Made by a program: the position numbers and the translations under genes. Of a DNA stretch of 34,514 nt, positions 1 to 34,514 are shown piece after piece. The stretch is from the IMG/VR virus record IMGVR_UViG_3300044630_001269, positions 1 to 34,514 of that record. One strand, written 5' to 3'. Positions within the stretch are counted from its first letter, which is position 1; the number at the start of each line of letters is the position of its first letter. This stretch comes from a virus. The notes below the pieces were generated by a model. It was not told the origin of the DNA. It did no database searches and worked only from the letters and a program-made list of their open reading frames with translations.

Positions 1-519
1 ACTGCTGTGCTTGATGTCCTCGGTTTGCTATCAGCCCGGGCGAGCCGGGTTCATGTCGTCAAAGGCACGGAATGCCACACCCGCAATGATGAGATCCGCA
101 TCGGCTCAGCACTAGGTGGCACCCGCGATCCACAGACAGGTCAACACGCATGGGATCGCCTTGACCTCGATGTGAACGGATGCCTCGTTTCATTCGCTCA
201 CCACATCAGCACAACCTCGCGGCCCTACCTTGAGGCGGCACAACACAGCATCAATCTTGGCGTGGAAATCCACGAAGCGGCACGCATGGGCAGACCGATC
301 CCCAAAGTGATCTGCCGGGCGCACAGGCATCGGCATGGCGTGTGGTCTGACGGAAATTCAATGTCGATCGTTACTGGAGCATGGCAGGGAATTACACGAT
401 TCGGGCGCAAAGTTGTCCCGGCTGCAATCCCTCAGCCTAGTGCTGTGATTCTCGATTGGCGATCGGTTGAGAAAGGCGAACTACCGATTGTCCATCCGCG
501 AGTTTATACTGCAAAATAA
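1..519 (+). CDS. Calcineurin-like metallophosphoesterase, C-terminal part (continues from 34514)
   Basis: This is the C-terminal 172 residues of a phosphoesterase whose first 84 residues lie at 34263-34514. The frame is open from base 1 without a start codon, and the first codons (act gct gtg) follow on directly from the last codon of the window. The expected metallophosphoesterase blocks are visible: VKGTECHT in the place of the family's GNHE motif, a His pair in SFAHH, and CRAHRHRHG matching the terminal GHxH block. The family hydrolyses phosphodiesters or phosphomonoesters with two metal ions. In phages such proteins are often found near lysis or nucleic acid genes and their substrate is usually unknown. 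It is the last large gene of the late block. The GTG at 7 is an internal codon and not a start. Confidence in the family is high, in the substrate nil. Confidence 0.85.
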   Translation, partial: TAVLDVLGLLSARASRVHVVKGTECHTRNDEIRIGSALGGTRDPQTGQHAWDRLDLDVNGCLVSFAHHISTTSRPYLEAAQHSINLGVEIHEAARMGRPIPKVICRAHRHRHGVWSDGNSMSIVTGAWQGITRFGRKVVPAAIPQPSAVILDWRSVEKGELPIVHPRVYTAK

Positions 520-520: not shown

Positions 521-763
521 ATGGCTAAGAAAATCGGAAACCTGTCGAGTCTGCAATTTGCTCTTTCACAATTAGTTGATGAGCCGCAGCAAGATGATGA
601 ATTTAGCGTGAGGGATTTTGTGGATGAGGCACAAAAAATTGATCCGAAAATGACTTACACCATAGCTAAAAACAGAATTGGTTCGATGTGTGAAAACAAC
701 ACCCTAACAAAAAGGTCGATCCGTCGAAATGGGACAATGATAAATATCTACAAAAAAGCGTGA
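521..763 (+). CDS. Small winged-helix-like phage protein
   Basis: This 80-residue protein begins at an ATG one base after the phosphoesterase stop codon, so the two genes are almost certainly co-translated. An in-frame ATG at 467 would start inside the phosphoesterase gene and is less likely. The sequence has the order seen in short winged-helix domains: an acidic N-terminal helix (DEFSVRDFVDEAQ), a middle helix with repeated Ile/Ala/Arg (YTIAKNRIGSM) and a basic C-terminal hairpin (LTKRSIRRNGTMINIYKK). That arrangement suggests nucleic acid binding, but no specific family was recognised. It lies at the end of the late transcript, just before the terminator. A role in late regulation is inference only. 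Confidence 0.6.
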   Translation: MAKKIGNLSSLQFALSQLVDEPQQDDEFSVRDFVDEAQKIDPKMTYTIAKNRIGSMCENNTLTKRSIRRNGTMINIYKKA

Positions 764-1002
764 TCGACCAAGAGCAAATCACATGGGAATCACAATTTGC
801 AATCGTTTATTTCCGCTCAAAAGCGATCCCATGCCAGACATGCGGGAAACAACCTGATCACGATTACCAACCCGGTAGCAGGTTGATTTGGTGCGGTGGA
901 AAATCCTGCAAGCGATCAGTAACCGATTCGGGTTTAGTTGATGGATTTAGCGACTGGAACACCATGCAAAATAACCTTGCAATGCATAAACGAAAATCTT
1001 AA
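760..1002 (+). CDS. Small zinc-ribbon protein, Lar-like
   Basis: This 80-residue protein starts at a GTG that overlaps the preceding stop codon (GTGA), a typical translational coupling. It has a CQTC pair near residue 25, a second cysteine pair in WCGGKSC near residue 50, and then FSDWNTM. The spacing of two Cys pairs followed by a Trp-Asn in an amphipathic helix matches the pattern of the Lar restriction-alleviation-like zinc ribbons common in phages. In Rac prophage, Lar relieves type I restriction by modulating the host enzyme, but many proteins with this fold have no tested function. The assignment rests on the Cys/WN pattern alone. It is the last gene before the strong terminator hairpin. 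Confidence 0.5.
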   Translation: MIDQEQITWESQFAIVYFRSKAIPCQTCGKQPDHDYQPGSRLIWCGGKSCKRSVTDSGLVDGFSDWNTMQNNLAMHKRKS

Positions 1003-1044: not shown

Positions 1045-1080
1045 CCGCCCCGGGGTTTGATTCCCCGGGGCGGTTTTGTT
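1045..1080 (+). terminator. Rho-independent terminator of the rightward (late) transcript
   Basis: A perfect 11-bp GC-rich stem (CCGCCCCGGGG at 1045-1055, CCCCGGGGCGG at 1063-1073) with a 7-base loop is followed by TTTTGTTT on the plus strand. The T-rich tail lies only on the right, so it best terminates rightward transcription. It sits exactly between the convergent ends of the late and early blocks. In the other direction the hairpin has no U tract. Confidence 0.9.
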
Positions 1081-3638
1081 TAGATTGGGATCCAAACGCA
1101 ACGCTGGCGAATCTGTGAACCGAATGCCATTACCCCCATGCGCTTTGCTCCGGTCACTCGCTCAAGTTGATGTTTCCACTTGCTCGCGCCCCATGCTGTT
1201 GGGCTGAATATCTGCTCAAGAGCGGGATGGTTATTCGCCACGAATATTCCCCGGCTATCTGCGCAGAACCTAACCCCATGGCGTTGCAGCGCATCCATGC
1301 GGTCTTTCCGGCGCATCATTGTTCCAGCATCATCGGCGGAAAGCGGATCGCTTTGAATGTCTGCGATAACCTCAGAAATCGTGCGCTGATAATTTACCCC
1401 GGCAACATCGAACCTGATCGAGCTTGCCGCAAGATGAGCGAGGCATTGGTTTTCGTCATTATCAACATCCTCAGACTTAAATCCGGCCCAATCTTGCCGC
1501 TGCATGAATTCAAGAGCGATGGAATTCGTCACCTGCTTATTTGTGGTTAGTGAATATGCCCCGGCTAGCAATGCCCCGATCTGATCTGCGCTGCGTTTAT
1601 CCCCGGTGAAATCAACCGCAACACGTGAAAAGATTTCGCAATTCTCTCGGATGATTTTTGCATTCTTGATGCATCGGGCGCGGAATTTGCTGCAATAGCT
1701 ATCATTTGAAACAGTAGATTTCCATAATGCTACCACCTTGTCGAAATGATCGGCGGCATACCGCCCAAGGTTTTTGCGAAGTTGAAGGATTGAAATGCGG
1801 CTCACATCGGACTTTTTAACTGCCGCAACACCGATGGATGCAAAGCAGAATGCGGATCGGATCAGATATGTCACCGATCCGCCCTGTGCCGTGCCTTTGA
1901 CGATCCCTGCCCCGGTTTCGGTAGATGATTGCCGGGCTAGGGTTAGGATCGATTCAAACCTTGCTTGTGATGCCTTATCCTCAGACTCCGCTTCATCAAA
2001 TACCACCGGAAGAGAATCAGAACCAAGCATCCCGCGAATGCCTGCCTCGGATGTCGCGCCCTGAACATGCAATGCAGCATCACCAACAATCGGCTGGATG
2101 ATGTTTGAGACGATCCATGATTTCCCTGACCCGCTCGGCCCGGTCACCCACATATGGGGCCGCCAACGCAATGCCCCGCCGATTGGGGCGAGGGCAAGCC
2201 ATCCGGCGAGCAATTTGCCGTATAGCGGACGCTCCCATGACAGCATCTCGCATAGGTCGATCAATTTAGCTGAATCAGCATTGGTCAAAATTGAATCAGT
2301 CTCGGCATCAATCCGTAATGCGCCATGATAAATCGCCCGGCGTGATGAATTATATTTCGGTATCGGCACATCACCGCCATTGATCAGCAGCCGATCGCCG
2401 GCATGGTAAACGATATCCCCGCCATCGATCCAGCACCCCCGGCCCCGGATCCTCCGGGAGTCAAACATCGGCATTGATTGTGACCGCTGGATTAGCGCGT
2501 TGATTGCTGCATCCCAACCGACTCCCTGATTGCTGCCGGGGAACACGATCTCCCACATTTGCAGCGGGGCAAGACGCATCAGGTTGTTTTTGCTGTGCGC
2601 CGATGCGGCAAGGCTCACGATCTGCTGGCTTTTATCCGGCATGTAGTAAAATAATTCGCCATCCGCCCCAAGCAAACGGAACGGAAGATCAGCAATCCTG
2701 TCCGACTGGATCGGGTCTGCATCCTCGCCCGGTTCTGGCGCGATCGATGCCCTAGCCTCGGCATGATCGATCAGTTGGCGCATCTGCTCTGGGGTGGCAT
2801 CTGCTGCATCCCATCCTGCCTCTGCATCAACTGGAGGCACAACCATGCTTATTTGCGCACAGATCGATTCTAGACGCTTTGCGATAGCCTCGGCGGCAAT
2901 CATGCCCGGAGAGTCATTGTCGGGCCAAATGACGCAATCTCGGTCACGCAGCGGCTCCCAGTAAGATTTACCATGTGCCGATGACCCGCCTGACCATGTG
3001 GTGGCATTAAATCCTGCGGCGATCAGAGCAGAGGCAGCTTTTTCACCCTCAGCAATGATGATCGGGTCTGAATTCCTAATGATTTCCGGCAAATTGAACA
3101 ATGGCCTCGGCTCCGCCATTGCCTTCCATTTCCAACCTGTCGCGCCGGAGGTCGATTTGCACCATGTTAGAGGCAAAACCTCTTTTCCTGTCGGGTTATC
3201 GAACCTTGCGATATATCCGCGAATTTCCTTATCTTTGCCTAAATACTCCCAGACCGCTGTGGGGTTTCTGCCCTTATTCATTAGCACAAACTCATTTGCT
3301 GGCTCGGGAGCAAATGGCATCGAAACCCATGTGTCGGATTTCGATGACGTAGGGGCTGGGGTGGATCCGATTTTACCCGCAAGCCAATCGGCTGCTTCCC
3401 GGATGGATACCTCCCGGGAAAGTTGGACTAATTTTAGAATTCCGCCTTTATCCCCGGTTGCAAAATCAGACCATACGCCAGTCTGCGTATTGATCGACAT
3501 TGATGTTCCCGATTCGCCACTTATTGATCCAATCTTCCATTCTTTTCCTGATTTCTTCCCGTTTGGGAACAATTCTCGGACAATGGACTCAATATGGGGT
3601 AATGCTTGCTGGTTTAGTTCCTGAAAATCATGGTTCAT
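1080..3638 (-). CDS. Phage DNA primase-helicase (Toprim plus P-loop ATPase)
   Basis: This 852-residue protein combines a primase-like N terminus with a helicase-like ATPase. Residues about 30-90 resemble the N-terminal domain of phage primases (SINTQTGVWSDFATGDKGG) but lack the zinc-binding cysteines. Residues about 190-260 form a Toprim domain with EGEKAA and WPDNDSPG as acidic motifs. A Walker A motif, GPSGSGKS, lies near residue 498 and a Walker B-like motif, VVFDEAESED, near 545. The family makes RNA primers and unwinds DNA at the phage fork. It is the last gene of the leftward operon and its ATG overlaps the stop of the upstream gene by 4 bases (ATGA at 3635-3638). The remaining C terminus (about 700-852) is not recognised. 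Confidence in the general role is high; which sub-family it belongs to is open. Confidence 0.85.
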   Translation of the reverse strand: MNHDFQELNQQALPHIESIVRELFPNGKKSGKEWKIGSISGESGTSMSINTQTGVWSDFATGDKGGILKLVQLSREVSIREAADWLAGKIGSTPAPTSSKSDTWVSMPFAPEPANEFVLMNKGRNPTAVWEYLGKDKEIRGYIARFDNPTGKEVLPLTWCKSTSGATGWKWKAMAEPRPLFNLPEIIRNSDPIIIAEGEKAASALIAAGFNATTWSGGSSAHGKSYWEPLRDRDCVIWPDNDSPGMIAAEAIAKRLESICAQISMVVPPVDAEAGWDAADATPEQMRQLIDHAEARASIAPEPGEDADPIQSDRIADLPFRLLGADGELFYYMPDKSQQIVSLAASAHSKNNLMRLAPLQMWEIVFPGSNQGVGWDAAINALIQRSQSMPMFDSRRIRGRGCWIDGGDIVYHAGDRLLINGGDVPIPKYNSSRRAIYHGALRIDAETDSILTNADSAKLIDLCEMLSWERPLYGKLLAGWLALAPIGGALRWRPHMWVTGPSGSGKSWIVSNIIQPIVGDAALHVQGATSEAGIRGMLGSDSLPVVFDEAESEDKASQARFESILTLARQSSTETGAGIVKGTAQGGSVTYLIRSAFCFASIGVAAVKKSDVSRISILQLRKNLGRYAADHFDKVVALWKSTVSNDSYCSKFRARCIKNAKIIRENCEIFSRVAVDFTGDKRSADQIGALLAGAYSLTTNKQVTNSIALEFMQRQDWAGFKSEDVDNDENQCLAHLAASSIRFDVAGVNYQRTISEVIADIQSDPLSADDAGTMMRRKDRMDALQRHGVRFCADSRGIFVANNHPALEQIFSPTAWGASKWKHQLERVTGAKRMGVMAFGSQIRQRCVWIPI

Positions 3639-12931: not shown

Positions 12932-12956
12932 GATGTATGATTTTCTTGTTGGATTG

Positions 12957-13236: not shown

Positions 13237-13285
<49 letters not shown>

Positions 13286-13431: not shown

Positions 13432-13438
13432 ACCGGAA

Positions 13439-14506: not shown

Positions 14507-14508
14507 TC

Positions 14509-14883
14509 ATGTCAGCACATAAGCCAAAAAAGGAAAACGCAAGCCTGATTCGCAACCTTGCCGGGATTGGAGTCCCGTTGAAGATGATTGCGTCCCAAAT
14601 CGGCATCGATGAAAAGACGCTGCGAAAGTATTACGACGAAGACATCGACATCGGCCAAGCCAAGGCTACCACCGAGGTTGCACGCAGACTTTACGATATC
14701 GCCATGGGAGACACGAAGGAATCTTTGACCGCATGCATTTTCTGGCTGAAATGCCGGGCGCGATGGTCAACCCTCGACGGCCCGGAGGTTCAAGTTAATG
14801 TCCAAAACAATTCAATCACAACAATTGCCGACAGTGAAGAAGTTAAACGATTCAAAAAGCAATGGGAAGCAATTGACGCCTAG
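14509..14883 (+). CDS. Terminase small subunit
   Basis: A 124-residue protein with an N-terminal helix-turn-helix: LIRNLAGIGVPLKMIASQIG followed by IDEKTLRKYY. Then come KATTEVARRLYDIAMGD and ACIFWLKCRARW, the pattern of small terminase subunits. These bind the packaging start site on the concatemer and regulate the large subunit. The gene overlaps the large subunit by 86 bases if the latter starts at 14798, or by 11 bases if it starts at the TTG at 14873. It follows the minor head gene by two bases, so both are probably one transcript. Confidence 0.82.
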   Translation: MSAHKPKKENASLIRNLAGIGVPLKMIASQIGIDEKTLRKYYDEDIDIGQAKATTEVARRLYDIAMGDTKESLTACIFWLKCRARWSTLDGPEVQVNVQNNSITTIADSEEVKRFKKQWEAIDA

Positions 14884-16228
14884 CATCGAGCTAGGCCCGT
14901 TTGCGTTTGGCGTGCTTGGCTTGCGTCCGTATGACTGGCAGGTTAGGGCGTTTAAGGGCATCAACGATCATCAGCGAACATCGCTTGTTGCGGCGAATGG
15001 ATCCGGCAAGACCGCTGCGGTGATTGCCCCGGCGATTTTGTGGTGGTTGTCGGTATTTCCCAAAGGGCGCGTTCCGGTGACAAGTGGGTCATGGAGGCAG
15101 GTATTGCTGCAGCTATGGCCTGCGATGGAAAAATACCGGGGCAATCCTTTGTTTCAGGGTTGGACATGGAATCAGGCGGAAATCAAAACCCCGCAAGGCG
15201 GATGGGCATCGGGATTTTCTACTGACAGTCCGGGGCGGGCTGAGGGATATCACGCGACTGTAGATAGTCCGGTTTTGTATGTATTGGACGAGGCCAAGAC
15301 AATCCCGGACGGCATCAAGTCTGCGGTTGACCGATGCACAGCAAACCGGATCCTTGCGGCATCATCTCCGGGCGCTCCGGTGGGTTGGTTTTACAGGTCG
15401 CAGCATGAGGAGGCGGATTATTGGTATCGGGTGAAAGCTCGATCGGATGAATGCCCGCATATTGACCCGGAGAAGCGGCGGAGGGATTTGGAGGTTTACG
15501 GTGAGAAGCATCCGATATTTCGATCCATGCACCTTGCGGAATTTGCCGAGGATGTTGACCGCTTGATTTTGTCGAGTGATGCGTTGCGTGATGCGATTGA
15601 CAACCCGCCTGACAGGGAAAGCGGCCCGATTGTTGCATTTTGTGACTTTGCGGCTGGGCGTGACGAGAATGTGTTGGCGGTTCGCCGTGGGAATTACGCT
15701 CGGGTTGTTAAGTCATGGGCGGAGAAGGACACGATGCAAGGTGTGCGGCAGTTCGTGAGGTTGTTTGAGTCCGAGAAGTTGAAAGCGTCACAGATTTGGG
15801 GTGATGCTGACGGATTGGGGACTGTGATGATTGACGCATTGGCCGAGCATGGTTGGAGGATCAATCGGTTCCATGGTGGGGCTCGAAGTCGAGAGCCGAA
15901 CGAGTACATGAATTTGATTGGCGAAGTCTGGCATGTTGGATGTCGTGAGATTGCGCGGGGGCGGATAAGGTTGGGTGATTTGGATCCTGTTACATTCAAG
16001 CAATTGACTAGCCGGAGAACCGAGTGGAGTGAGAATGGGAAGTTGCGGATTGAGTCGAAGGAAACGATGCGTGCTGGAGGTGTGAAATCCCCTGACCGAG
16101 CGGATGCGTTGCTTGGTTGTATTGTCTGTGGCCCTGCAATGCAGGGGATGATGACTGGAGATGCACCTGTTAGGACTAGGCGATCGGAGTTTTCATCGCC
16201 TAAACAATCAGGGTTCAATGCTATGTGA
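14798..16228 (+). CDS. Terminase large subunit (ATPase and nuclease)
   Basis: A 476-residue packaging motor protein. The ATPase part has the P loop AANGSGKT at residues 65-72 and the Walker B VLDEA at 162-166. The nuclease part shows the acidic residues in FCDFAAGRDE (D283), WGDADGLG (D336/D338) and SPDRADALLG near residue 435. Together they match the TerL architecture in which an N-terminal motor drives DNA into the prohead and an RNase H-like nuclease cuts the concatemer. The start at 14798 overlaps the small subunit by 86 bases; a TTG at 14873 would give a shorter protein. It follows the small subunit in the usual order. The family is clear, but the packaging strategy (headful or cohesive ends) cannot be deduced. 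Confidence 0.9.
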   Translation: MSKTIQSQQLPTVKKLNDSKSNGKQLTPSIELGPFAFGVLGLRPYDWQVRAFKGINDHQRTSLVAANGSGKTAAVIAPAILWWLSVFPKGRVPVTSGSWRQVLLQLWPAMEKYRGNPLFQGWTWNQAEIKTPQGGWASGFSTDSPGRAEGYHATVDSPVLYVLDEAKTIPDGIKSAVDRCTANRILAASSPGAPVGWFYRSQHEEADYWYRVKARSDECPHIDPEKRRRDLEVYGEKHPIFRSMHLAEFAEDVDRLILSSDALRDAIDNPPDRESGPIVAFCDFAAGRDENVLAVRRGNYARVVKSWAEKDTMQGVRQFVRLFESEKLKASQIWGDADGLGTVMIDALAEHGWRINRFHGGARSREPNEYMNLIGEVWHVGCREIARGRIRLGDLDPVTFKQLTSRRTEWSENGKLRIESKETMRAGGVKSPDRADALLGCIVCGPAMQGMMTGDAPVRTRRSEFSSPKQSGFNAM

Positions 16229-16275
16229 ACTATGGCTTGCCAATTGGAATTTAATATGTTAATCGAAAACTTCAC

Positions 16276-17964
16276 ATGACTATCGACGAGCGCAAAGGTG
16301 TTGTTTGGCCAATCCCTGCACAATACCGAACCAATGATTACGATCTGGCAAATGTAACCCCGGATCAGGTTCGTACGATCCTGCGCGGCGTCCGTACTGG
16401 CAAGCTAGAGGATCAAGATCGCCTGTTCCGCTTGATGCTCGATACATGGCCTCGTTTGCGTAAGGCATTGAACGAGGTTGCTGGGTCTGTGGCTAGGCTG
16501 GAACTTGAGATCAAGCCGGCGATCCGGGAGGATGCTGAGGAACCAACCCCGGCGGCAGTGAATATCTACGAGACAGTCGAGCGCGCATTGGAGTCATATT
16601 CTCCCCGCCCGGGATATTGGGAGTTAGACCTTTCCGGCATGGTTAGGGCATTGATCGATGCATACGCCAAGGGGATTTCTGTACTGGAGATCGTATGGCA
16701 ATCCGAGAATGGCGTCATTAGCCCAAGGTGCTATGCCCCGGTTCCTGCTAAGTATCTCGCCTATCCGTCCGCATCGAATGATGTTGATCGGCTCATGATT
16801 GCCCCAAGCGGCGTCAATTACGCATCGCTGGTTGATTTCCCGCCTGATCGGTTCTTGATCGGTATTTGGTCGCAAGGTGGAACACATCCGATCCATGCGG
16901 CGAACTTGCGGACGCTGACGAAGTATTGGTTGGCGTCTGTCTATGGTCTTGGTTGGCTGATGCAATTCTCGCAGCTATTCGGTATTCCGATGCGGACAGC
17001 AAAGACCGATGGAACCGAGGATGCGTTGAACAAGGCTGAGGATATGCTGGAGTCGATCGGATCATCCGGTTGGGCCGCTACCGGGCCGGGTGTTGATTTC
17101 GAGATCCATTCTGCTGTGACTGGCGGCGATAGCCTCCCGCAGTCTCACATGATGGATGTTGCTGATCGGGCTTGTGATATCTTGTTGCTAGGTCAAACGC
17201 TCACAACCGATAACACCGGGACAGGATCCAGAGCATTGGGCGATGTCCACTCCGGTATCCGGTCTGAGGTTCTGCAATCTGTGTCCTCATGGGTGGCATC
17301 GATTATCACAACTCAATTGATCCCGGCAATCGTGCGGATGAATTTCGGCAAGGTGGCTTCCGAGGACATGCCATATTGTGAGCTTGAGATTCCAGTTCCA
17401 AAGGATGAGAAGGCAATTGCCGAGCGGGTTAAGATTTACAACGAGATCGGGGTCAAGATGCCTCGTGCTTGGGTTTATGAGGAATTGGGTATCCCGATGC
17501 CGATCGAGGGTGAAGAGGTTTTCGGTGATGATGACCTGCCTGAGCTACCGGAGCTGGAGCCGGACGCTGAGGATGCGCCTCAGCCGGAACCGGAAGATGC
17601 TCCCGATCTGTCTGATATCGATGAGGTTGAGTCAGCCGCATCGGTTGACTTGCGTCCGACTGAAGAGATGGCACGTAACGCAATAAATGCCCTAGAAATT
17701 CGTCGGGCAAAGCCGCAATCTGAGCGTGGCATGACATCAGTCGGCCTCGCCCGGGCGCGTGATATCTCCAACCGGGCGGAATTGTCCGAGGATACTGTCC
17801 GCCGGATGGTTTCCTACTTCCAGCGTCATGAGGTTGATAAGAAAGGATCCACTTGGGATGAGCAGGGTAAAGGTTGGCAAGCATGGAATGGATGGGGTGG
17901 TGATGCCGGATTTGCATGGGCAAAGCGGATTGTTGATAAGCTAGATTCCGGCAATGACCGATGA
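16276..17964 (+). CDS. Portal protein, DUF935 (Mu gp29-like) with C-terminal extension
   Basis: A 562-residue protein whose first 400 residues follow the DUF935 portal family: an N-terminal region (NVTPDQVRTILRGVRTGKLE), the core LDLSGMVRALIDAYAKGISV and LEIVWQSENG, and the domain around MMDVADRACDILLLGQTLTT. Portals form the dodecameric channel through which DNA enters and leaves the head. From about residue 415 a Pro/Glu/Asp-rich linker leads to an extra domain (MTSVGLARARDISN, then MVSYFQRHEVDKKG and WNGWGGDAGFAW) known from phage head or protease proteins. The ATG at 16276 has no Shine-Dalgarno. The end overlaps the next gene by 11 bases. Confidence 0.88.
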   Translation: MTIDERKGVVWPIPAQYRTNDYDLANVTPDQVRTILRGVRTGKLEDQDRLFRLMLDTWPRLRKALNEVAGSVARLELEIKPAIREDAEEPTPAAVNIYETVERALESYSPRPGYWELDLSGMVRALIDAYAKGISVLEIVWQSENGVISPRCYAPVPAKYLAYPSASNDVDRLMIAPSGVNYASLVDFPPDRFLIGIWSQGGTHPIHAANLRTLTKYWLASVYGLGWLMQFSQLFGIPMRTAKTDGTEDALNKAEDMLESIGSSGWAATGPGVDFEIHSAVTGGDSLPQSHMMDVADRACDILLLGQTLTTDNTGTGSRALGDVHSGIRSEVLQSVSSWVASIITTQLIPAIVRMNFGKVASEDMPYCELEIPVPKDEKAIAERVKIYNEIGVKMPRAWVYEELGIPMPIEGEEVFGDDDLPELPELEPDAEDAPQPEPEDAPDLSDIDEVESAASVDLRPTEEMARNAINALEIRRAKPQSERGMTSVGLARARDISNRAELSEDTVRRMVSYFQRHEVDKKGSTWDEQGKGWQAWNGWGGDAGFAWAKRIVDKLDSGNDR

Positions 17965-18800: not shown

Positions 18801-18805
18801 CATTT

Positions 18806-19819: not shown

Positions 19820-19828
19820 CACAAATAT

Positions 19829-20767: not shown

Positions 20768-20795
20768 TCCTAACCTCTAAATAGATAATACGACA

Positions 20796-21194: not shown

Positions 21195-21211
21195 TAGTGG
21201 GTTGCTAATCG

Positions 21212-21261
21212 TGCCGCTGGTCTGGGGTTTGTTCATTTCCCTCGGATCAGCGGCAATTTTC
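21212..21261 (+). terminator. Terminator-like hairpin after the capsid genes
   Basis: A 16-bp stem with three G-U wobbles (TGCCGCTGGTCTGGGG at 21212-21227 with 21239-21255), an 11-base loop, and ATTTTCTAAAT as a weak T-rich tail. It may terminate or attenuate transcription after the most highly expressed genes, or protect the mRNA 3' end. Confidence 0.65.
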
Positions 21262-21271
21262 TAAATATAAT

Positions 21272-22200: not shown

Positions 22201-22206
22201 TATATT

Positions 22207-23915: not shown

Positions 23916-23916
23916 T

Positions 23917-25428: not shown

Positions 25429-25432
25429 AAAC

Positions 25433-28195
25433 ATGCCAGTAAATTGGACAATAGCAGGCGAAGCGGGACAGGGTTGGAATGAAAACCCAACAGATTTGGC
25501 ATTTCGTAATATCAGTTCTGCCAAGCTCGACTTCAAGAGCCTTGATGCCGATCAACTGACATTTAATGTTGTTGTTGAAGATGCCACAACGGAGTCATTT
25601 GTTGCTACCCCTACTATTACGCCGGATTCATCTGTTCGCATTTCATCTCCATTAACTGTCACGGTTTCATGCGAAACCGCAGGCGCAACGCTGCATTACA
25701 CTACAAATGGAACAAACCCGGATACCTTAAGCCCAACCGTTGCAAATGGAGGAAACTTGACATTCTCCATACCAAGAACCCTAAAGGTTCTGGCTGTTAA
25801 ACCCGGATTGCTCGATAGCGACATCAATGTCGCTGAATACAAACTTGAGGATATTGTAGCCACTGGTGGAACCACAAGCGATGCGGGTGGATTTAGAACA
25901 CACACATTTCTATCATCCGGCAGCTTGGTTGTGACCAATGGGGGTGTCATTGAATACCTAGTTGTTGCTGGCGGCGGATCCGGTGGCGAAAATTCCTCGA
26001 ACAGATCCGGTGGAGGCGGTGGCGCTGGCGGATTCAAGACCGGAACGATGACAATAAACCCCGGCACATACGCTATTAGCGTTGGAGCCGGGGGGATGGC
26101 GTTAGCTCCACAGACTTCCGCATCGAATGGCGGCGGATCATCGATCGGCACATTGGTAACGACAACTGGCGGTGGAGGTGGCGCAAGCGTATCAGGAACA
26201 ACCGCAGTAGCTGGTCGCACAGGTGGATCCGGCGGCGGCGGAACTTGTGGCGGAGCAGGTGGGACTGGATCCTCTAGTCAGGGTAATAATGGCGGCGGAT
26301 CGGCATCAACTACATCCGGCACTGGCGGCGGTGCGGGTGCGGCTGGAACTACTGTCAGCGTGGTAACTTCAAATGGCGGGGGCGGAACGGCATCGAGCAT
26401 GACCGGGGTTTCCGTGACATATTCAGTTGGTGGTGGGGTTAGGGATCCATTAGCTACTGGAAGCAGTTCGATTGATAGATCTGTTATAGCAAATACCGGG
26501 CGCGGCGGGGCAGGGGCGTTTAAGAGTTCAACAATCAGAATCGGCGCAAACGGATCGTCTGGAATTGTAGTTATAAAATATGCGCTGGTTCAACCATCAA
26601 AACCAAAGAATATACAATCCACGGCATCAACTCTTCCTACATTAAGGCAACAAATTGTTTTATATAGAGAACTTGATATTTTCTTCTATGGATGGGTCAC
26701 AAATATCCGCAGTATAATTTCAAATGGATCCCATGAGCATCAAGTTACAGTATCTGGGCCATGGTGGTTCTTGGAGAAAGTTCCTTTTACATCAGACATA
26801 CAGGACGGATCAGGAAAAATTGGAGAGCGGATTTCATATGTTTTCGGGACGCCATCATCTGGTCAGCAATTAAAAACTAGCATTGAACAAGCGATCAATC
26901 GAGCAAATCAGATAGGATGCCCGATTGCACCAACTAGCGGAGGTTCATCCGTTGCAGCGATGCACACATTCCCGCGCATTACATTGAATCAATCGACATG
27001 CGGTCAAGTTATTGCCGAACTTGTGCGATTGGTTCCAGATGCGATGACATATTTTGATTATTCAGTATATCCACCAGCATTGAAGGTTGTTAGAAGGCCA
27101 ACATGCGCCACAACCACATTCAATCAAGACACATCACCGATCACATCGATTGATATTAACCCGATGATTGAGCTTGAAGTTGAGCAGGTGACGCTTCCAT
27201 CCGTAACGAGAAATACAATTGGTTCAACGGTATTTAATGTACAGGAATCTGGATCTGATCTATCTGGTACAGATATAACAAAACGGCAGGTAATTACAAT
27301 ATCCGGCCCGGAGCTAGATACATTCTTGCCGAATGATTTGTTTGACTCGCAGACTATTACGACAAGCGGAAGCATTTCTAATTTGGCGCATGATTCTGAT
27401 GAGGCCTGTAAATTGGCCGCAAGGAAATATGGCCGTAGCAGATTGCCAATTGCAATATATGCCCAAGGAGTAACGCTTTATAGCGCAAGACAAGGCTCAT
27501 ATAGCCTGCCACCAAGCTATTATACAACAGACGCATTTACCATTGGAGGTTATTCTATTAAAGACACATCTGGTAATTCTTTGGATGGATGGTCTATTTT
27601 AACATCTGGTGTCCCGGCTGATTGGACTGGTATTACATATAAGCCATGTATTGTTAGCGGTACTATGTGGATAAAAGCTACTCGCGATGAAGGCTCATAT
27701 GGTACAGCATCATCATTTCCCTTACCGGATTACATATACGAAGCAGATTTTAAATTTTTAACATCTGGATACACAGAGATCACCTCCTTTGGTGATTACG
27801 TCGAATACTATACAAAACCATTTAAATTTTCAGGATTCGCAACACCGGGAAATGCAGGATCACAAACTGTTTACAAACCCGCCGATTACTCATTCATCAA
27901 CCCACCCACCGGACTTGCTGAATTTCTTCGTTCAACACAGAACTGGGTTCCGTATGAAGGATCAATCCAGCTTGAACAAGAAGATGTTGGCGCGACTCGG
28001 TATGTCGGGAAAAAGATTAACATAATTAACTCACTCCCTGCATTCTCGACCATGGGCGCATTGGTGTCCGGTGAATCGCTGGAGATTGAATCCGGGCGAA
28101 CAACTATTAACCTTGGCGCTCCGGCCCGGAATGATTACCGAACGCTGGTGGACAAAATCCGCAAGACATCGCAAGATAACATTGTTTACGTCTAA
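25433..28195 (+). CDS. Tail hub/baseplate protein with inserted CHB_HEX_C-like and glycine-rich adhesin module
   Basis: A 920-residue protein. Residues 1-55 and about 385-920 form a tail-hub-like protein (QLTFNVVVEDAT; LRQQIVLYRELDIFFYGWVT and NGSHEHQVTVSGPWWFLEKV). Between them lies an insert with two domains. Residues about 57-140 (SSVRISSPLTVTVSCETAGA, LHYTTNGTNPDTLSP) match the chitobiase/beta-hexosaminidase C-terminal type. Residues about 145-385 are glycine-rich (VVAGGGSGGENSS, NGGGSS, GGGGGAGG), ending in GANGSSGIVVIKYAL, which resembles phage receptor-binding polyglycine sandwiches. The insert splits the hub sequence between a beta strand and the loop before the next, so the surface loop probably displays the adhesin at the tip. 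It is the largest gene of the window. Confidence 0.75.
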   Translation: MPVNWTIAGEAGQGWNENPTDLAFRNISSAKLDFKSLDADQLTFNVVVEDATTESFVATPTITPDSSVRISSPLTVTVSCETAGATLHYTTNGTNPDTLSPTVANGGNLTFSIPRTLKVLAVKPGLLDSDINVAEYKLEDIVATGGTTSDAGGFRTHTFLSSGSLVVTNGGVIEYLVVAGGGSGGENSSNRSGGGGGAGGFKTGTMTINPGTYAISVGAGGMALAPQTSASNGGGSSIGTLVTTTGGGGGASVSGTTAVAGRTGGSGGGGTCGGAGGTGSSSQGNNGGGSASTTSGTGGGAGAAGTTVSVVTSNGGGGTASSMTGVSVTYSVGGGVRDPLATGSSSIDRSVIANTGRGGAGAFKSSTIRIGANGSSGIVVIKYALVQPSKPKNIQSTASTLPTLRQQIVLYRELDIFFYGWVTNIRSIISNGSHEHQVTVSGPWWFLEKVPFTSDIQDGSGKIGERISYVFGTPSSGQQLKTSIEQAINRANQIGCPIAPTSGGSSVAAMHTFPRITLNQSTCGQVIAELVRLVPDAMTYFDYSVYPPALKVVRRPTCATTTFNQDTSPITSIDINPMIELEVEQVTLPSVTRNTIGSTVFNVQESGSDLSGTDITKRQVITISGPELDTFLPNDLFDSQTITTSGSISNLAHDSDEACKLAARKYGRSRLPIAIYAQGVTLYSARQGSYSLPPSYYTTDAFTIGGYSIKDTSGNSLDGWSILTSGVPADWTGITYKPCIVSGTMWIKATRDEGSYGTASSFPLPDYIYEADFKFLTSGYTEITSFGDYVEYYTKPFKFSGFATPGNAGSQTVYKPADYSFINPPTGLAEFLRSTQNWVPYEGSIQLEQEDVGATRYVGKKINIINSLPAFSTMGALVSGESLEIESGRTTINLGAPARNDYRTLVDKIRKTSQDNIVYV

Positions 28196-28200
28196 AAGTC

Positions 28201-29484
28201 ATGGCCCAATTTTCAACCAACAAAGATGCATTTGGAAATGTCACCGCTGAAACTGGCGCGGTTATTGATATCTCACAATCCACGACATTTTACAAATATA
28301 TCGGCGATACGGGAACCGCTGCTGTATTAGTGGATCCAGTATCGAATACCGCAAGATTCGCCCCAAGGTTCGCTGGCGGGTCAGGTCGAAACATCCTCAT
28401 TCGGAACAATGTCGTTCCGGGATCAACCCCATATGGTTGGATGTTTCCAGACGCATCCGAATCATGGTTGGCTGAGGATGGGGTTTTCTTCGCGAGCGTG
28501 AATGGATCCGGTGAAATTGAATTCTCCGATGACACAGACATCATTGCGGTTTCCGATCCATATCCATTCCCGACATCTGGATATAATATCGGTGCAGCAA
28601 ATCAAACTTACGGGTGGGGTGGTACTTTCCCTCCGGGCGGCGGGCCGGGAACTAGGACAATTACGCTAGGATCGGGAATTGGTGAGGTTGCATTCAAATC
28701 TGATGGGTTTATTTCTGGAGCATCAACATTCCGCTTTGAGGTTGTATGGAATGGAACAACTGTGATCGATACCGGGAGCCTTGCAAGCGGATCATCTTTC
28801 TCCCATTCATTCATCAAAACAACAGCATCCCCGGCAACAATATCGGTGACGCTTACTAGTGCATCAACAACTGGATCCGGTGATGTGGAAATCGGCAGCA
28901 ATGAAGCCAGAACTGATTTCACGGCAGACTCAACTTCATATGGTGATGGGTTGAATGGAGGAACACCATTTACTCTGAACTGCACTTACGAGAATGGCGG
29001 CGGAGAAATCTCGGCACAGATCACGTCCTACACGTTATTCGGTGATGATGATCCTGTGGTATTTACGCAGTCGAAATATGACTGGCAGAATTGGACTGAT
29101 CCGACCTCAACGTATTTCGTCAATATCGACGCGACCGGGCTGGCTTCAATCAGCGATGCAACAGACGTGATTGCTGAGCGAGTAGAGTTGCTGAATTTGG
29201 ATCCCACCGGATCATATGCAGCTACCGCATATGGCAAGACAACTTACAATGTTGGCGAGGATTTCAATATCTCAATTCTCCCAATTGAAAAAAACTCACA
29301 GACGCTCGTGACGTATCTTGCAATGGATGTCACCGGGACTGTGTTGGATGACGTGCGCGGCCCATTCTCTGACCCTGCGCTTCCGGCTAATACGTCCACT
29401 GTGAAATACCTGCCAATTTCGACATCTGATGTTACAACTGGGGTGATTACGCAGCTTTTAGAGGGAACCTTGGTATTGAGATAA
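28201..29484 (+). CDS. Structural tail/baseplate protein, beta-rich
   Basis: A 427-residue protein, mainly beta strands with many Ser, Thr and Gly. It includes WLAEDGVFFASVNGSGEIEF, TRTITLGSGIGEVAFKSDGF, TFRFEVVWNGTTVIDTGSLA and SYAATAYGKTTYNVGEDFNI. The inner part resembles carbohydrate-binding-like or Ig-like tail modules. Its position between hub and fibre genes places it at the tail tip. No enzyme motif. The start at 28201 follows the hub gene by five bases. Confidence 0.55.
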   Translation: MAQFSTNKDAFGNVTAETGAVIDISQSTTFYKYIGDTGTAAVLVDPVSNTARFAPRFAGGSGRNILIRNNVVPGSTPYGWMFPDASESWLAEDGVFFASVNGSGEIEFSDDTDIIAVSDPYPFPTSGYNIGAANQTYGWGGTFPPGGGPGTRTITLGSGIGEVAFKSDGFISGASTFRFEVVWNGTTVIDTGSLASGSSFSHSFIKTTASPATISVTLTSASTTGSGDVEIGSNEARTDFTADSTSYGDGLNGGTPFTLNCTYENGGGEISAQITSYTLFGDDDPVVFTQSKYDWQNWTDPTSTYFVNIDATGLASISDATDVIAERVELLNLDPTGSYAATAYGKTTYNVGEDFNISILPIEKNSQTLVTYLAMDVTGTVLDDVRGPFSDPALPANTSTVKYLPISTSDVTTGVITQLLEGTLVLR

Positions 29485-29511
29485 TCCTTGCCAAATCGCA
29501 TCGGTTATGGT

Positions 29512-29862
29512 ATGCAAATCGGCGCAATGGCGGGAACAAATCTTAATGCCTATTCCGGCGAAACATTGAGCTTATCCTTTTCCTGCAAGGACGAGGCTGG
29601 CGCGGCATTCAACCTCACCGGATATTCCGCCCGGGCCAAGGTTCGTTCCACAATCGCATCCAGCGTTGTGGTGATCGATCTCGCCCCGGCTATCCCAACT
29701 CCGGCTAATGGTATCATTTTGGTAAGCAAGACCGATGAGCAGACCGCAGCGGTTGCACCGGGAACCTATTACTGGGATCTCGTCCTAGATACCCCGACTG
29801 GCGGGGTGATTTTCATTTCTGGCGGAACCATTAAATTTCGTCAAATCGCATCCCGATCATGA
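29512..29862 (+). CDS. Baseplate-associated protein (BppU-like domain, tentative)
   Basis: A 116-residue protein, starting at the ATG at 29512 (an in-frame TTG at 29488 would give 124 residues). The segment FNLTGYSARAKVRSTIASSV, then GTYYWDLVLDTPTGGVIFIS and GGTIKFRQIASRS, matches small tail proteins whose N-terminal unit resembles BppU baseplate domains and which anchor fibres. It overlaps the fibre gene by 4 bases (ATGA). The exact family is not certain. Confidence 0.6.
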   Translation: MQIGAMAGTNLNAYSGETLSLSFSCKDEAGAAFNLTGYSARAKVRSTIASSVVVIDLAPAIPTPANGIILVSKTDEQTAAVAPGTYYWDLVLDTPTGGVIFISGGTIKFRQIASRS

Positions 29863-31163
29863 GCCTAGAAATCGTCGAAATCAGATCATTTTCAGGCCCA
29901 TCCGTTGTGGAGGTTCAGGGCAGCGATGAACCATCGGTTGTCCTGATCAATCAAGGCCCGGCTGGTGACTCTTCTACCGCCCCGATCTCGACCGCTACCG
30001 ATACCGCCCTGATCGGGTACATTTACGGAAATGGAACAAAGATTGCTGGCGCGACTGCTGCCACTTCAGAAGGAACGCCTAATACTTTGATGCTTCGCAG
30101 TGCCGCTGGTACTGTTTCAATAAACGGAACAACAGGCGATACCTTTGGTCTTGCCGTCTCATCTCCTTCCATTTATGCAATTCTTGGAAATGGAACTGGT
30201 AGCGCAGAAGGAGTGAGGGCATTATCAGTATCAGGAACCGGAGTGAATGCTTCTTCAAGCTCCGGAACAGGATCGCTTTCACAATCTGGCATGGGGGCGG
30301 GGTCAAGAAGTGTTACATTTTCTGGTTCTTATCATCATCAATTCGGCGGGAATCCGGGAGGCTTTATTGGCGATGACCGATCCGCTGTCGAGCGTATTCG
30401 CGGCTGGTTCGTCTGGTTCTTTGGGTCTTTCACTGGTCGCCTGAAGACCGCTGACATCACTGCTAACCGTGAGTGGACGCTACCTAACGCATCGGGATTT
30501 GTTGCGCTCACGCAAAATGCAAATGGCGCTGTAACCAATACGGAATTCTACGCTAAAGCAGCGGTTCCGATTACTGCTGGACAGGCGGTTTATATTTCCG
30601 GCGCATCCGGGGCGAACAAGATCATCACGCTTGCTCAGGCTAATACTGAAGCGACATCCAGCAAGACGATCGGCCTAGCATTGCAGAATCTTGCAACCAA
30701 TGGCTTTGGCTATGTTGTGAGCGAGGGCGATGTCACCGGGTTGACAATTAACCTTGGCTCCGGGCATGGCGTATCGGAGGGGGATCCGATTTGGCTGTCC
30801 CCGACTACCCCGGGCGGATTGGTTTTCGGCTTGGCCAACAAACCATCAGCACCGAATCATTTGGTGTTCTTGGGTTATGTCACCCGAATCAATGGCAATA
30901 CGCTTACAGAGATTTTTGTTAAGGTTCAGAATGGCTTTGAGCTAGGAGAACTGCATAATGTTGCCATCAATGGCGTTGCGGATGGCCAAGTCTTGACATA
31001 TGAATCCTCGACCGGGCTATGGAAGAATAAGCCAACAACAACCACCAAAGCGACAACTGGCAACCCCGCATCCGGCATCGAGGGGCAAATCTGCATCAAT
31101 ACTTTCGACAATAATGTTAAAATATACGCTGAAGGAAGCTGGCGTCAAATAGCTTCTTGGTAA
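29859..31163 (+). CDS. Tail fibre protein
   Basis: A 434-residue protein with an N-terminal anchor (PSVVEVQGSDEPSVVLINQG, PAGDSSTAP), beta-repeat-rich middle segments (SLSQSGMGAGSRSVTFSGS; RLKTADITANREWTLPNASG) and a C-terminal region typical of fibres: FELGELHNVAINGVADGQVL, then a knob GQICINTFDNNVKIYAEGSW. The N-terminal GPAG-type element often precedes fibre shafts. It should be the main or a secondary receptor-binding fibre. It shares overlapping ends with the baseplate-associated gene. Confidence 0.75.
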   Translation: MSLEIVEIRSFSGPSVVEVQGSDEPSVVLINQGPAGDSSTAPISTATDTALIGYIYGNGTKIAGATAATSEGTPNTLMLRSAAGTVSINGTTGDTFGLAVSSPSIYAILGNGTGSAEGVRALSVSGTGVNASSSSGTGSLSQSGMGAGSRSVTFSGSYHHQFGGNPGGFIGDDRSAVERIRGWFVWFFGSFTGRLKTADITANREWTLPNASGFVALTQNANGAVTNTEFYAKAAVPITAGQAVYISGASGANKIITLAQANTEATSSKTIGLALQNLATNGFGYVVSEGDVTGLTINLGSGHGVSEGDPIWLSPTTPGGLVFGLANKPSAPNHLVFLGYVTRINGNTLTEIFVKVQNGFELGELHNVAINGVADGQVLTYESSTGLWKNKPTTTTKATTGNPASGIEGQICINTFDNNVKIYAEGSWRQIASW

Positions 31164-31173
31164 TACTAAATAT

Positions 31174-31437
31174 ATGGATCCAATCGAATCTAATCCAATT
31201 GCAACTGCTGAATTCGGTCAGCGTGGCGTGATTGTTGAAACTGGCACAACCGCTCTTACTGGTCTTGATGCCTACGCAATCCAAATGCTTGCCGATACGA
31301 CATTCGCAACGCTGACTGAGGATAACCGGACTGGTGATGCCATGACGGGATTTTCAATCCCGGCTGGCGTTGTGATGTTCGGTAACTTCCGCGCAGTCAC
31401 GCTTACGAGCGGTGCAATTCGGATTTATCTCAAATGA
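31174..31437 (+). CDS. Small tail-fibre-associated protein
   Basis: An 87-residue protein. Residues such as ATLTEDNRTGDAMTGFSIPA followed by GVVMFGNFRAVTLTSGAIRI form a compact beta unit that occurs in small tail proteins next to fibres. It may cap or trimerise the neighbouring fibre. Its end overlaps the lectin-like gene by 4 bases (ATGA). No motif for enzyme activity. Confidence 0.6.
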   Translation: MDPIESNPIATAEFGQRGVIVETGTTALTGLDAYAIQMLADTTFATLTEDNRTGDAMTGFSIPAGVVMFGNFRAVTLTSGAIRIYLK

Positions 31438-32966
31438 AGCTAGGATTGCTCAATACCCTGACTGATGGGCGCGGTGGAGGCATTAGTGGCGATGGCCTCG
31501 CCCTCGACCTCCAGTTCGCGGCTGACAAGACTCTGACCGCGAGGCGTGGGCCGACACCTGTCTTTACACGGTCGAGCGGAGATAATGGCGGGACAACATA
31601 TTTTGGGCCGCTAGTAGATTTTGACGTGGTAACCGCATTCTCAACAACAGGAATTTCTAATGGGCGGGCTTCGTGGTTCAAATCATATGAAGGCACAGAT
31701 ATAACGATATCTTACACCGGAGCTAGATGGAGCGTTGTGACTGTAGACAACGGAGACGAGGTCACATACCTAGCTGCGCCCGGTGGCGAGTGGCGACCAG
31801 ACCAAGCCGACTGGAGTGGTGAGGCTTTCTCAGTAACAACTAGCAGCACCTTCGGCATTGTAAAGGCAGCGAACAACGAACCCCGTTTCGACCACAACCC
31901 CGTGTCACCATTTGCGTGCCGTGGCTTGCTGATCGAGGAGTCGAGGACTAATGCGATTACTGGTTCTAACGCGTTTAATACTTGGACGCTAGGAAACTCT
32001 ACTGTTGCGGCATCATCTGTAGTAACTCCAGAAGGGACGGCAGACGCATGGAAAGTTGTAGAAGACTCGCTTTTAAATATTCACACAGTAACACGTGGTT
32101 TTACTGCTGTATCAGGAACTACTTACACCGCATCAGTGTGGTTGAAGTCGGCAGAAAACGGGTTTGCATTTGTTGGACTTTCTGGTGGCGGATTCTTTCC
32201 AACATTCATTTCCGTTAATCTTTCCACTGGGGCGGTTTCCACTGCATTAGGGACACCTATTGGAGCCTCATCAGTGAGTCACTCCAACGGATGGTGGAGA
32301 GTTTCATTCTCATTGGCAGCTACAGCGTCTCTGTCATCAAGCATAGACATCAGACTATCGCGTGATGGCAACTGGGCGAACCGCTCATATTTAGGGAATG
32401 GAGTGAACGGAATGTATGTTTACGGTGCACAAGTAGAAGCAGGTTCCTTCCCCACCTCCTACATCCCGACGACGACTGGCACATTGGCTCGCGGCGCGGA
32501 TGTGTGTACGATTACAGCAGCGGATTTTAATAGATTCTACAATTCCACATCTGGAACACTGTTGAGCGAGGCATCAATTTCCAACTTGATTGGTAATAAC
32601 CGAGGGATTGTTCAGATAGACAATGGCACGAATGAATCTATTCTACGTCATGTGTACTCGTTTGGTGATGGTGGATTCAGAAGTATTATTAGAGCAGGTG
32701 GTGACACCCCAACAGTACTTTCAACTATTTTGGGTACAGCGTCCACGATTCAAAAAAGGATCATAGCCTACGAAGGAACAAGTTTTGCATCCGTAACAAA
32801 TGGAGGCGTAGTTGCTACAGCAACACGCACTATGCCAACTGGATTAAACGCGATGAGAATTGGGAACCTTACTGATGGTTCATTCTACCTAAGTGGTCAC
32901 ATTGCCGCCATCCGCTTTTACAAGAAACGCCTGCCCAACGCAAAAATTCAAGCACTCACGGTATGA
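31434..32966 (+). CDS. Tail adhesin with concanavalin/CBM-like domain
   Basis: A 510-residue protein. The block PRFDHNPVSPFACRGLLIEE followed by SRTNAI is a common linker in phage tail adhesins. After it comes a carbohydrate-binding-like beta domain (TPEGTADAWKVVEDSLLNIH, GTTYTASVWLKSAENGFAFV, then SFPTSYIPTTTGTLARGADV) and a C-terminal LamG/ConA-like unit (SGHIAAIRFYKKRLPNAKIQ). An extra unit around residues 65-135 (GTDITISYTGARWSVVTVDN) is inserted in the N-terminal part. It probably binds a surface glycan. It overlaps the neighbouring gene on both sides by 4 bases. Confidence 0.75.
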   Translation: MKLGLLNTLTDGRGGGISGDGLALDLQFAADKTLTARRGPTPVFTRSSGDNGGTTYFGPLVDFDVVTAFSTTGISNGRASWFKSYEGTDITISYTGARWSVVTVDNGDEVTYLAAPGGEWRPDQADWSGEAFSVTTSSTFGIVKAANNEPRFDHNPVSPFACRGLLIEESRTNAITGSNAFNTWTLGNSTVAASSVVTPEGTADAWKVVEDSLLNIHTVTRGFTAVSGTTYTASVWLKSAENGFAFVGLSGGGFFPTFISVNLSTGAVSTALGTPIGASSVSHSNGWWRVSFSLAATASLSSSIDIRLSRDGNWANRSYLGNGVNGMYVYGAQVEAGSFPTSYIPTTTGTLARGADVCTITAADFNRFYNSTSGTLLSEASISNLIGNNRGIVQIDNGTNESILRHVYSFGDGGFRSIIRAGGDTPTVLSTILGTASTIQKRIIAYEGTSFASVTNGGVVATATRTMPTGLNAMRIGNLTDGSFYLSGHIAAIRFYKKRLPNAKIQALTV

Positions 32967-33283
32967 CCGACTATCTGCTTAAATTCCCCGACCGCACCAC
33001 CGCCGTCATGTTCGGACTGGCGAATGGCTTTGCGACCATCGACGAGGACGGCAACGAGCAGATCACGCTTGCGTCACATGAATACGCACTCCACATCATC
33101 GGTGAGCATAACGGCTCGGACTGGTGGGTGCTATTCAGAGATCTCGTCGGCATCCCGATTCCAGAGGGTGGCGAACAGTTTATCTATTGGTCATCCGACT
33201 GGACAGTCGAGGATGAAGCTGGAAACGACATCAGGATTCCCCGCCCAGAATCAGAAGATGTCCCAAATGTCTTTTGGGCATAA
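32963..33283 (+). CDS. Hypothetical protein downstream of adhesin
   Basis: A 106-residue acidic protein (MTDYLLKFPDRTTAVMFGLA, GEHNGSDWWVLFRDLVGIPI, EGGEQFIYWSSDWTVEDEAG). Similar small proteins follow tail adhesins in other phages and may help their assembly or attach to their tip. Function unknown. The start overlaps the adhesin stop by 4 bases (ATGA). Confidence 0.65.
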   Translation: MTDYLLKFPDRTTAVMFGLANGFATIDEDGNEQITLASHEYALHIIGEHNGSDWWVLFRDLVGIPIPEGGEQFIYWSSDWTVEDEAGNDIRIPRPESEDVPNVFWA

Positions 33284-33306
33284 TAATCTCAACACATAAT
33301 ACACAT

Positions 33307-33462
33307 ATGAAAACTACCGCACTAGGCATCTTAACAATCGTTGCAACGCTCGCTAATGTGGGTGTTCAAGTCCTCAAAGGTGGCGCACCAGACTTCATGG
33401 GTGCTATCGCTGCACTCACCGCAGGTTTCGGACTTGTTAAAGCGCAAGACAGCCGCCGCTAA
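33307..33462 (+). CDS. Small membrane protein, holin-like
   Basis: A 51-residue protein starting at 33307 (MKTTALGILTIVATLANVGV). It has two hydrophobic segments (residues about 5-22 and 30-45) separated by KGGAPDFMG, and a basic tail (KAQDSRR). The size, two possible membrane helices and the place before the lysin fit a small holin or membrane accessory. The start has no Shine-Dalgarno. The stop overlaps the next start (TAATG at 33460-33464). Confidence 0.6.
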   Translation: MKTTALGILTIVATLANVGVQVLKGGAPDFMGAIAALTAGFGLVKAQDSRR

Positions 33463-33662
33463 TGACTATCCCTGTTGAATGGATCCTCGGTGTCTTGATC
33501 GGCCTTGGTAGCGTAATTGCCACCTTGGCCGGGTTGCTCTGGCGCACCATGAACAATCGGCTTGAAGCGCAAGACCGGATCATTAGCAATTTGCAAAATG
33601 AAGTTGCTAGGCTATCCAAAGGATGCGGCATGGATTCCTGCATCTGGAGGCGGATTGCTTGA
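33462..33662 (+). CDS. Small membrane protein with coiled coil, holin- or spanin-like
   Basis: A 66-residue protein: an N-terminal hydrophobic helix (WILGVLIGLGSVIATLAGLL, residues 7-26), a coiled-coil segment (NNRLEAQDRIISNLQNEVAR) and a conserved end (KGCGMDSCIWRR). This layout of one membrane helix plus a periplasmic or cytosolic coiled coil is seen in small phage lysis proteins. Whether it is a holin, pinholin regulator or i-spanin cannot be decided. It is coupled to the preceding gene by a one-base overlap. Confidence 0.6.
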   Translation: MTIPVEWILGVLIGLGSVIATLAGLLWRTMNNRLEAQDRIISNLQNEVARLSKGCGMDSCIWRRIA

Positions 33663-33676
33663 CTTATGAACAATAG

Positions 33677-33693
33677 GTCAAGCCCAACTTGAC
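33677..33693. promoter_or_regulatory. Small dyad upstream of the endolysin gene
   Basis: GTCAAG-CCCAA-CTTGAC forms a perfect 6-bp inverted repeat 10 bases upstream of the endolysin ATG. TTGAC also occurs at 33659-33663. It may be a weak mRNA hairpin that limits lysin translation, or an operator. Both are speculative. Confidence 0.35.
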
Positions 33694-33702
33694 ATATCAA
33701 GC

Positions 33703-34266
33703 ATGACCTATACGGAAATTTACCATCTGCAAAAACGGATCGGAACCACCCCTGATGGATTCTGGGGGCGCAAGTCAATTGCTGCATGTCAGACGCATCT
33801 TAAATCCTTGATGCCATTGCAAAATCCATGGCCTCGATCGGATCAGGCGAGTCTAACTGAGTTTTATGGCAATGCCGGCGATGAGAACAAACTGGAATCA
33901 ATTGACGTATCCGGCCTTGGCGTGAGATATGATGGGCAAAAAATCAAATCTATCCGCTGCCATCGCAAAGTTGCTGATTCCCTCCATCGAGTCCTAGTGG
34001 CAATCAATGGCGGATCATGCGGATGGATCCTCGAGCAATACGCTGGATGTTATAACAACCGCCCGATGCGCGGCGGATCGCTTCCATCGCTTCACGCTCG
34101 GGGCGCGGCAATTGATCTGGATCCTGCGCCAAATGGCAATCATCGAGCTTGGCCGATTAACGCGACCATGCCGATTCAGGTCATGGAAGAATTCGCCAAA
34201 GAGGGGTGGTTAGCTGCCGGGGCATTCTGGGGGCGTGACGCAATGCATTTTCAAGCAACGAGATGA
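33703..34266 (+). CDS. Endolysin, M15 family peptidase (D,D-carboxypeptidase type)
   Basis: A 187-residue lysin. The N-terminal 35 residues (IYHLQKRIGTTPDGFWGRKS) resemble a peptidoglycan-binding fold. The catalytic part has SLHARGAAIDLD at 129-140 with H131 and D138 as zinc ligands (the HxxGxAxD pattern) and WGRDAMHFQ with H182 as the third ligand. This is the VanY-type M15 peptidase arrangement, which cleaves D-Ala bonds or peptide cross-links of the cell wall. It lies directly after two small membrane proteins, a lysis cassette order, and before the phosphoesterase, whose start overlaps its stop by 4 bases. The signal for export is absent, so a holin should release it. Confidence 0.85.
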   Translation: MTYTEIYHLQKRIGTTPDGFWGRKSIAACQTHLKSLMPLQNPWPRSDQASLTEFYGNAGDENKLESIDVSGLGVRYDGQKIKSIRCHRKVADSLHRVLVAINGGSCGWILEQYAGCYNNRPMRGGSLPSLHARGAAIDLDPAPNGNHRAWPINATMPIQVMEEFAKEGWLAAGAFWGRDAMHFQATR

Positions 34267-34514
34267 AAACAAAATCAAAGGCAATCCTTCTTCTCTCTGA
34301 TCTCCACATCGGATCCACTGTCGGCCTTTGGCCTGAAGGGTTCATCTGCAATGAAGGATTCCCGATCGGGCAGAACAAATTTCAAGAATGGCTTTGGGCC
34401 TGCTGGCAAGACATGCTCGGATGGGCAAAGACCACCATCGGCAAGGACGATTTTGAGTTGGTGTTAAATGGTGACCTCGTTGAGGGGATCCACCATCGAA
34501 CGCTTCAGGTCATG
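34263..34514 (+). CDS. Calcineurin-like metallophosphoesterase, N-terminal part (continues at base 1)
   Basis: The first 84 residues of the phosphoesterase interrupted by the ends of the window. The ATG at 34263 overlaps the stop of the endolysin gene (ATGA). The metal-binding blocks LSDLHIG (D-x-H) near residue 12 and NGDLVEG (GD-x2-x-G) near residue 72 are visible. The frame ends exactly at the last complete codon of the window and resumes at base 1. The full protein is 256 residues. Confidence 0.85.
   Translation, partial: MKTKSKAILLLSDLHIGSTVGLWPEGFICNEGFPIGQNKFQEWLWACWQDMLGWAKTTIGKDDFELVLNGDLVEGIHHRTLQVM

Follow-up and report, generated by a model that had tools for sequence, protein, structure and literature searches.

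A phage contig opened inside a phosphoesterase gene akin to the archaeal PolD small subunit: very probably a circular map with a 24-nt hole at the join

The window analysed here, which is the entire 34,514-bp virus record IMGVR_UViG_3300044630_001269, begins and ends within a single putative phosphoesterase gene, and the locus therefore raises the question of whether the two ends meet exactly. When bases 34263-34514 are joined directly to bases 1-519, the ends read as one frame in phase, with 84 codons followed by 173 including the stop, giving 256 codons before the stop and a joined product of 256 residues. The four motifs quoted in a sequence-only reading of this DNA (LSDLHIG, NGDLVEG, VKGTECHT, and CRAHRHRHG) are all present in the joined protein. 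That reading took the window for a circular or circularly permuted phage genome opened inside a calcineurin-like phosphoesterase gene, and concluded from the smooth frame that no gene is missing and that nothing precedes base 1. The start of the phosphoesterase overlaps the stop codon of the upstream endolysin (ATGA); the genes around the junction, together with the packaging genes, are given in Table 1. A megablast of the window, in two parts (1-20000 and 20001-34514), found nothing among 50,697 phage records.

Table 1. Genes at the junction and packaging genes of the window
Feature	Position	Strand	Evidence
Endolysin (M15-type peptidase), directly upstream of the phosphoesterase	33703..34266	+	PF13539 2.4e-6; phrog_17001 2.3e-20; syntenic in relatives
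Phosphoesterase, 5' part, 84 codons, runs off the contig end	34263..34514	+	ORF, ATG start
Phosphoesterase, 3' part, 172 codons and stop	1..519	+	frame open from the first base
80-aa ORF directly downstream of the phosphoesterase	521..763	+	synteny
Second 80-aa ORF, last of the rightward operon over the junction	760..1002	+	68-98% identity in 6 close relatives
Primase-helicase-like protein of 852 aa, opening the convergent early arm	1080..3638	-	phrog_35358 1.5e-106; syntenic past the junction
Terminase large subunit	14798..16228	+	phrog_2 1.6e-24
Portal protein	16276..17964	+	phrog_113 6.1e-64

When viral contigs were scanned for the joined protein, relatives were retrieved on 54 contigs at 60-94% identity, nearly all of them full-length, which bears out the view that the junction is not a product of chance. 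Nearly all of these relatives align with the joined protein from end to end, as expected of a single phosphoesterase, but the alignment is interrupted by 8 extra residues exactly at the join in all 52 relatives that span it, the other two (L054 and L055) beginning after the join. The extra residues are placed between residues 84 and 85 in 31 relatives, slid by one in 20, and split 7+1 in the last, and the 54 show no deletion and no further insertion when set against the joined protein. DNA alignments with ten close records put base 34514 and base 1 at a distance of 24 nt in nine cases; in the tenth, G002, the alignment begins at base 52 and the same 24 nt follow by arithmetic. A search of viral contigs for a near-identical contig across the join, by exact pattern with a gap of 0-30 nt, found none, and it is from relatives at this level of identity that we infer the absence of 24 nt.

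In the closest relatives, the segment absent from the window reads S-A-D-V-(S/G)-D-Q-T. It holds the residues D87, D90, and Q91, which are invariant in all 24 rows of alignment A1, and D87 and D90 are still invariant in all 37 rows of alignment A2. In the hhalign comparison with the archaeal polymerase small subunit DP1, the segment falls on a DP1 stretch containing D-I-F-D-Q. The frame remains unbroken across the join because a hole of 24 nt is a multiple of three, which is a one-in-three accident, and the relatives thus contradict the claim that nothing is missing: phase was kept by luck, and closure does not follow from it. It is very improbable that the record is exactly closed and encodes a genuine 256-residue protein with an 8-residue deletion. 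Such a reading has the open frame over the join on its side, but the deletion is found in none of the 52 spanning relatives, and a real one would need to lie precisely at the contig ends and take out D87, D90, and Q91, so that an assembly gap is far likelier. The full phosphoesterase most likely comprises 264 residues, not 256. A smooth open frame over two contig ends, then, does not prove closure; only relatives reveal a hole whose length is a multiple of three, here invariant residues are lost with it, and whoever takes the 256-residue protein as real has a damaged enzyme under study.

The circular map itself, the other half of the earlier claim, holds up well, since relatives pass through the junction and open elsewhere. 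The order endolysin, phosphoesterase, two 80-aa ORFs, and convergent primase is contiguous in six loci (L002, L004, L009, L010, L011, and L012), and relatives carry the gene intact between these same neighbours, from which circularity follows. Among the close relatives, G001 and G003 open near window position 13.2 kb, and G010 opens between 29.9 and 32.4 kb. The ends of 20 relative records were compared, of which seven overlap exactly (G003 by 55 bp, G010 by 75, G020 by 87, and G007, G014, G017, and G024 by 127 each), three overlap inexactly (G001 by 205 bp at 97.6%, and G019 and G023 by shared 15-mers), and ten show no overlap. In eight overlap-ended records, namely G001 and the seven exact ones, the phosphoesterase starts between 1.0 and 34.4 kb from the left end, so these records were opened at different places; the starts in G001, G003, G007, and G014 cluster at 21.6-22.3 kb. 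In the tail gene region at about 29.9-32.4 kb of the window, where G010 opens, the DNA is poorly conserved among several close relatives.

Compared with these overlap-ended circular IMG/VR contigs, whose exact overlaps measure 55-127 bp, the window differs in that no terminal overlap or repeat was found between its two ends, and a 24-nt hole stands in its place. The closed ends of a complete circular contig are thus not seen, and the gene order across the junction in six relatives argues for the circle. Natural fixed termini of a linear genome within the phosphoesterase gene, which the missing overlap would allow, are scarcely credible, given that the ends lie mid-gene, that 52 relatives carry the gene unbroken there, and that close relatives open at other points. 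A circular map with a 24-nt hole in the record is therefore very probably the correct reading. The assembler would have begun and ended inside one gene, and about 24 nt separating the last base from the first would have escaped assembly. Phage contigs that fall just short of closure are common, and this one, nearly complete but not closed, is otherwise ordinary.

How the virion DNA is packaged is a separate matter. The nearest GenBank terminase is that of the Akkermansia phage Chambord (47.2% identity over 96%), and the nearest portal is that of the Akkermansia phage Chantilly (36.7%), followed by Mu-type portals. Both Akkermansia phages are listed as COS 5' by PhageTermVirome in Table 2 of PMC10197239.

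Headful packaging of a circularly permuted genome, which would also yield a circular map, is an alternative account of that map and is doubtful. The relatives open at several different points and the more distant portal matches are Mu-type, Mu being a headful phage, and both facts would suit it. A circular map, however, needs no such mechanism, as cos phages or circular intracellular DNA also give one, and the origin of the nearest terminase in a COS 5' phage speaks against headful packaging without settling the matter. Judged from that terminase, and with low confidence, a fixed cos site is the more probable place of cutting for the virion DNA, although no cos site was located. That it might lie near 13.2 kb, where both G001 and G003 open, was considered and rejected as unproven, because an (AG)n(AT)n tract at this opening could itself break the assembler. 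The terminase and portal matches also suggest, without proving it, a host among the relatives of Akkermansia. The phosphoesterase gene did not lead to a host, since no relative was found in plasmids, and none of the 408 pattern matches in genome contigs was confirmed. In the relative G001, the terminase gene (G001:C1:28325-29743) contains one internal TAA, either a sequencing error or a real interruption.

The assignment to the calcineurin-like phosphoesterases stands in part. The Pfam profile PF00149 matches neither the 256-residue joined protein nor the window's own frames, so the profile search suggested as a check on the assignment came back empty; yet 8 of 24 relatives are hit by PF00149, at a best E of 3.6e-5, and the predicted structure clearly has the fold of a metallophosphoesterase. 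Against PHROGs there is a weak match to the exonuclease family phrog_284 (6e-4). The structure model was built for the L002 protein, with a mean pLDDT of 80 and with residues 76-85, 161-168, and 225-234 poorly modelled. It matched 93 PDB chains at E up to 0.001, and the best 50 of these 93 are entries that we take to belong to the calcineurin-like metallophosphoesterase superfamily. The first six rows of the fold ranking are all DP1 chains of the archaeal polymerase PolD, with Z of 15.4-16.4 over 216-223 residues, followed by VPS29 (Z 14.8) and LpxH (Z 14.2).

Profile comparisons point in the same direction as the fold. All 24 members of A1 are matched by the NCBIfam model for the small subunit of DNA polymerase II (PolD), as are 35 of the 37 members of A2 at E up to 0.1, with a best E of 1.5e-8. 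With the A2 profile, a search of PDB sequences up to E 10 gives six matches, all of them DP1 and weak (E 0.012-0.053); PDB sequence searches with single proteins or with A1 gave nothing. In hhalign, A2 against an alignment of archaeal DP1 reaches 96.4% probability with E 1.4e-9 over 212 columns. The DP1 alignment derives from 80 genome-contig loci, of which 25 reading frames were taken and 24 kept, the 132-residue L227 being dropped. Against six single DP1 sequences the probability is 18-87%, and the controls, E. coli LpxH, SbcD, and CpdA, which were single sequences rather than profiles, remain at 0.4-1.2%. By profile and predicted fold, the protein stands nearest to DP1, the small subunit of archaeal PolD with 3'-5' exonuclease activity. 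The L002 protein scores 22 bits against the NCBIfam DP1 model, far under the curated cut-off of 445, and on this score the phosphoesterase is not a member of the DP1 equivalog.

The phage protein shares with archaeal DP1 the fold, over 216 residues at Z 16.4, and in hhalign the stretches DxH, GDxVdGi, D-x-x-D-Q, HxH, and G-x-WQ-x-x-T. The two also differ. The phage protein, of 264 aa, aligns only to the C-terminal positions 278-530 of the 545 of the DP1 profile, and its motif III is GTxCH instead of GNHD. Across the alignments of the relatives, D13, H15, D71, H160, H200, and H202 are invariant. Motif III has the form GTxxH, as against GNH in the superfamily, and in the hhalign columns T115 falls on N450 and E116 on H451 of DP1, described as the metal ligand and the catalytic residue, respectively, in PMC10721889. 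The histidine that closes the altered motif, H118, is invariant in all 37 rows of A2. With N replaced by T and the catalytic H by E, the nuclease activity may be altered. Judged from sequence profiles and the structure model, the protein is DP1-like, a metallophosphoesterase that stands alone and has a changed motif III. As regards the OB domain and the partner subunit DP2, the alignment is confined to the C-terminal part of DP1, and no DP2 was found among the 27 window ORFs scanned.

Phage proteins with a PolD-small-subunit label are already known. In BFVD, the label "DNA polymerase II small subunit" is carried by phage proteins of the same fold (e.g., from Siphoviridae sp. ctBCr48), but the four BFVD proteins of that name are longer (391-474 aa) and only 10-16% identical to the phosphoesterase. 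Escherichia phage fBC-Eco01 Gp27c also carries this annotation in PMC9825357, a likeness by label only. A single GenBank phage record reaches E 1e-5 or better, MW202647.1, Caudoviricetes sp. ctMEh928, in which an ORF (L076, 5300-6094) is 41.5% identical over 99% of the protein. This ORF has H at position 116, differs in its gene neighbourhood, and is unannotated in the record. In most of the literature searched, judged by title and the opening of the abstract, no work on the phosphoesterase family was found. What is added here is one correction, that of the closure, the phage protein and the near-closed contig being otherwise of known kinds; through this gene, a set of phages not yet cultivated is linked with the exonuclease of the replicative polymerase of archaea.

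Around the junction, the phosphoesterase follows the endolysin, and two more genes complete the rightward operon. A homologue of the ORF directly downstream lies within 60 nt after the phosphoesterase in 43 of the 48 loci with room for it; in the window, this ORF (521..763) matches nothing in PHROG or Pfam. A scan of 27 window ORFs against PHROGs and/or Pfam recognised no DNA polymerase; the set leaves the joined phosphoesterase uncounted and does not cover every small ORF. By homology, the phosphoesterase would most likely bind two metals and hydrolyse DNA phosphodiester bonds, and such hydrolysis is, with somewhat better than even confidence, its likeliest activity. Its role may lie in repair, in packaging, or in attack on host DNA.

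A bolder and rather unlikely picture is that stand-alone PolD-small-subunit-like nucleases, in which motif III has been rebuilt as GTxxH and which go with a conserved partner gene of 80 aa, form a family widespread in uncultivated tailed phages, here in one without a recognised phage DNA polymerase; the enzyme would act late in infection on DNA ends or host DNA and not in proofreading. Another possibility, also rather unlikely, is an anti-defence or host-DNA-degrading phosphoesterase like Gp48 of mycobacteriophage A10ZJ24, as opposed to an exonuclease of repair or replication. Gp48, the product of an early gene, is described in PMC12287305 as a phosphoesterase that attacks host DNA, which illustrates that phage metallophosphoesterases can have this target, and the lack of a recognised polymerase among the scanned ORFs would be in keeping with such a role. 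The phage gene, however, follows the endolysin where the late operon ends, in contrast to the early Gp48, and Gp48 is likened to it by description only.

Several further features of the window were observed. Between the divergent arms, positions 13085-13445 form an AT-rich non-coding block with the repeated words GGTAACGC and AAATCCGCCC and the (AG)n(AT)n tract; parts of the block are conserved in G001, G003, G008, G010, and G011. The cumulative GC skew has its minimum at 13-15 kb. The block is a candidate replication origin. On the minus strand, a 137-aa ORF at 5973-6386 shows a sub-threshold Pfam PCNA_N match (E 0.023) that is probably due to chance. A resolvase-like ORF lies at 4227-4571 (phrog_93 and phrog_5702), and a RecE/exonuclease VIII-like nuclease is encoded on the minus strand at 8858-9742 (phrog_412 1.9e-93; DUF3799 2.3e-27).
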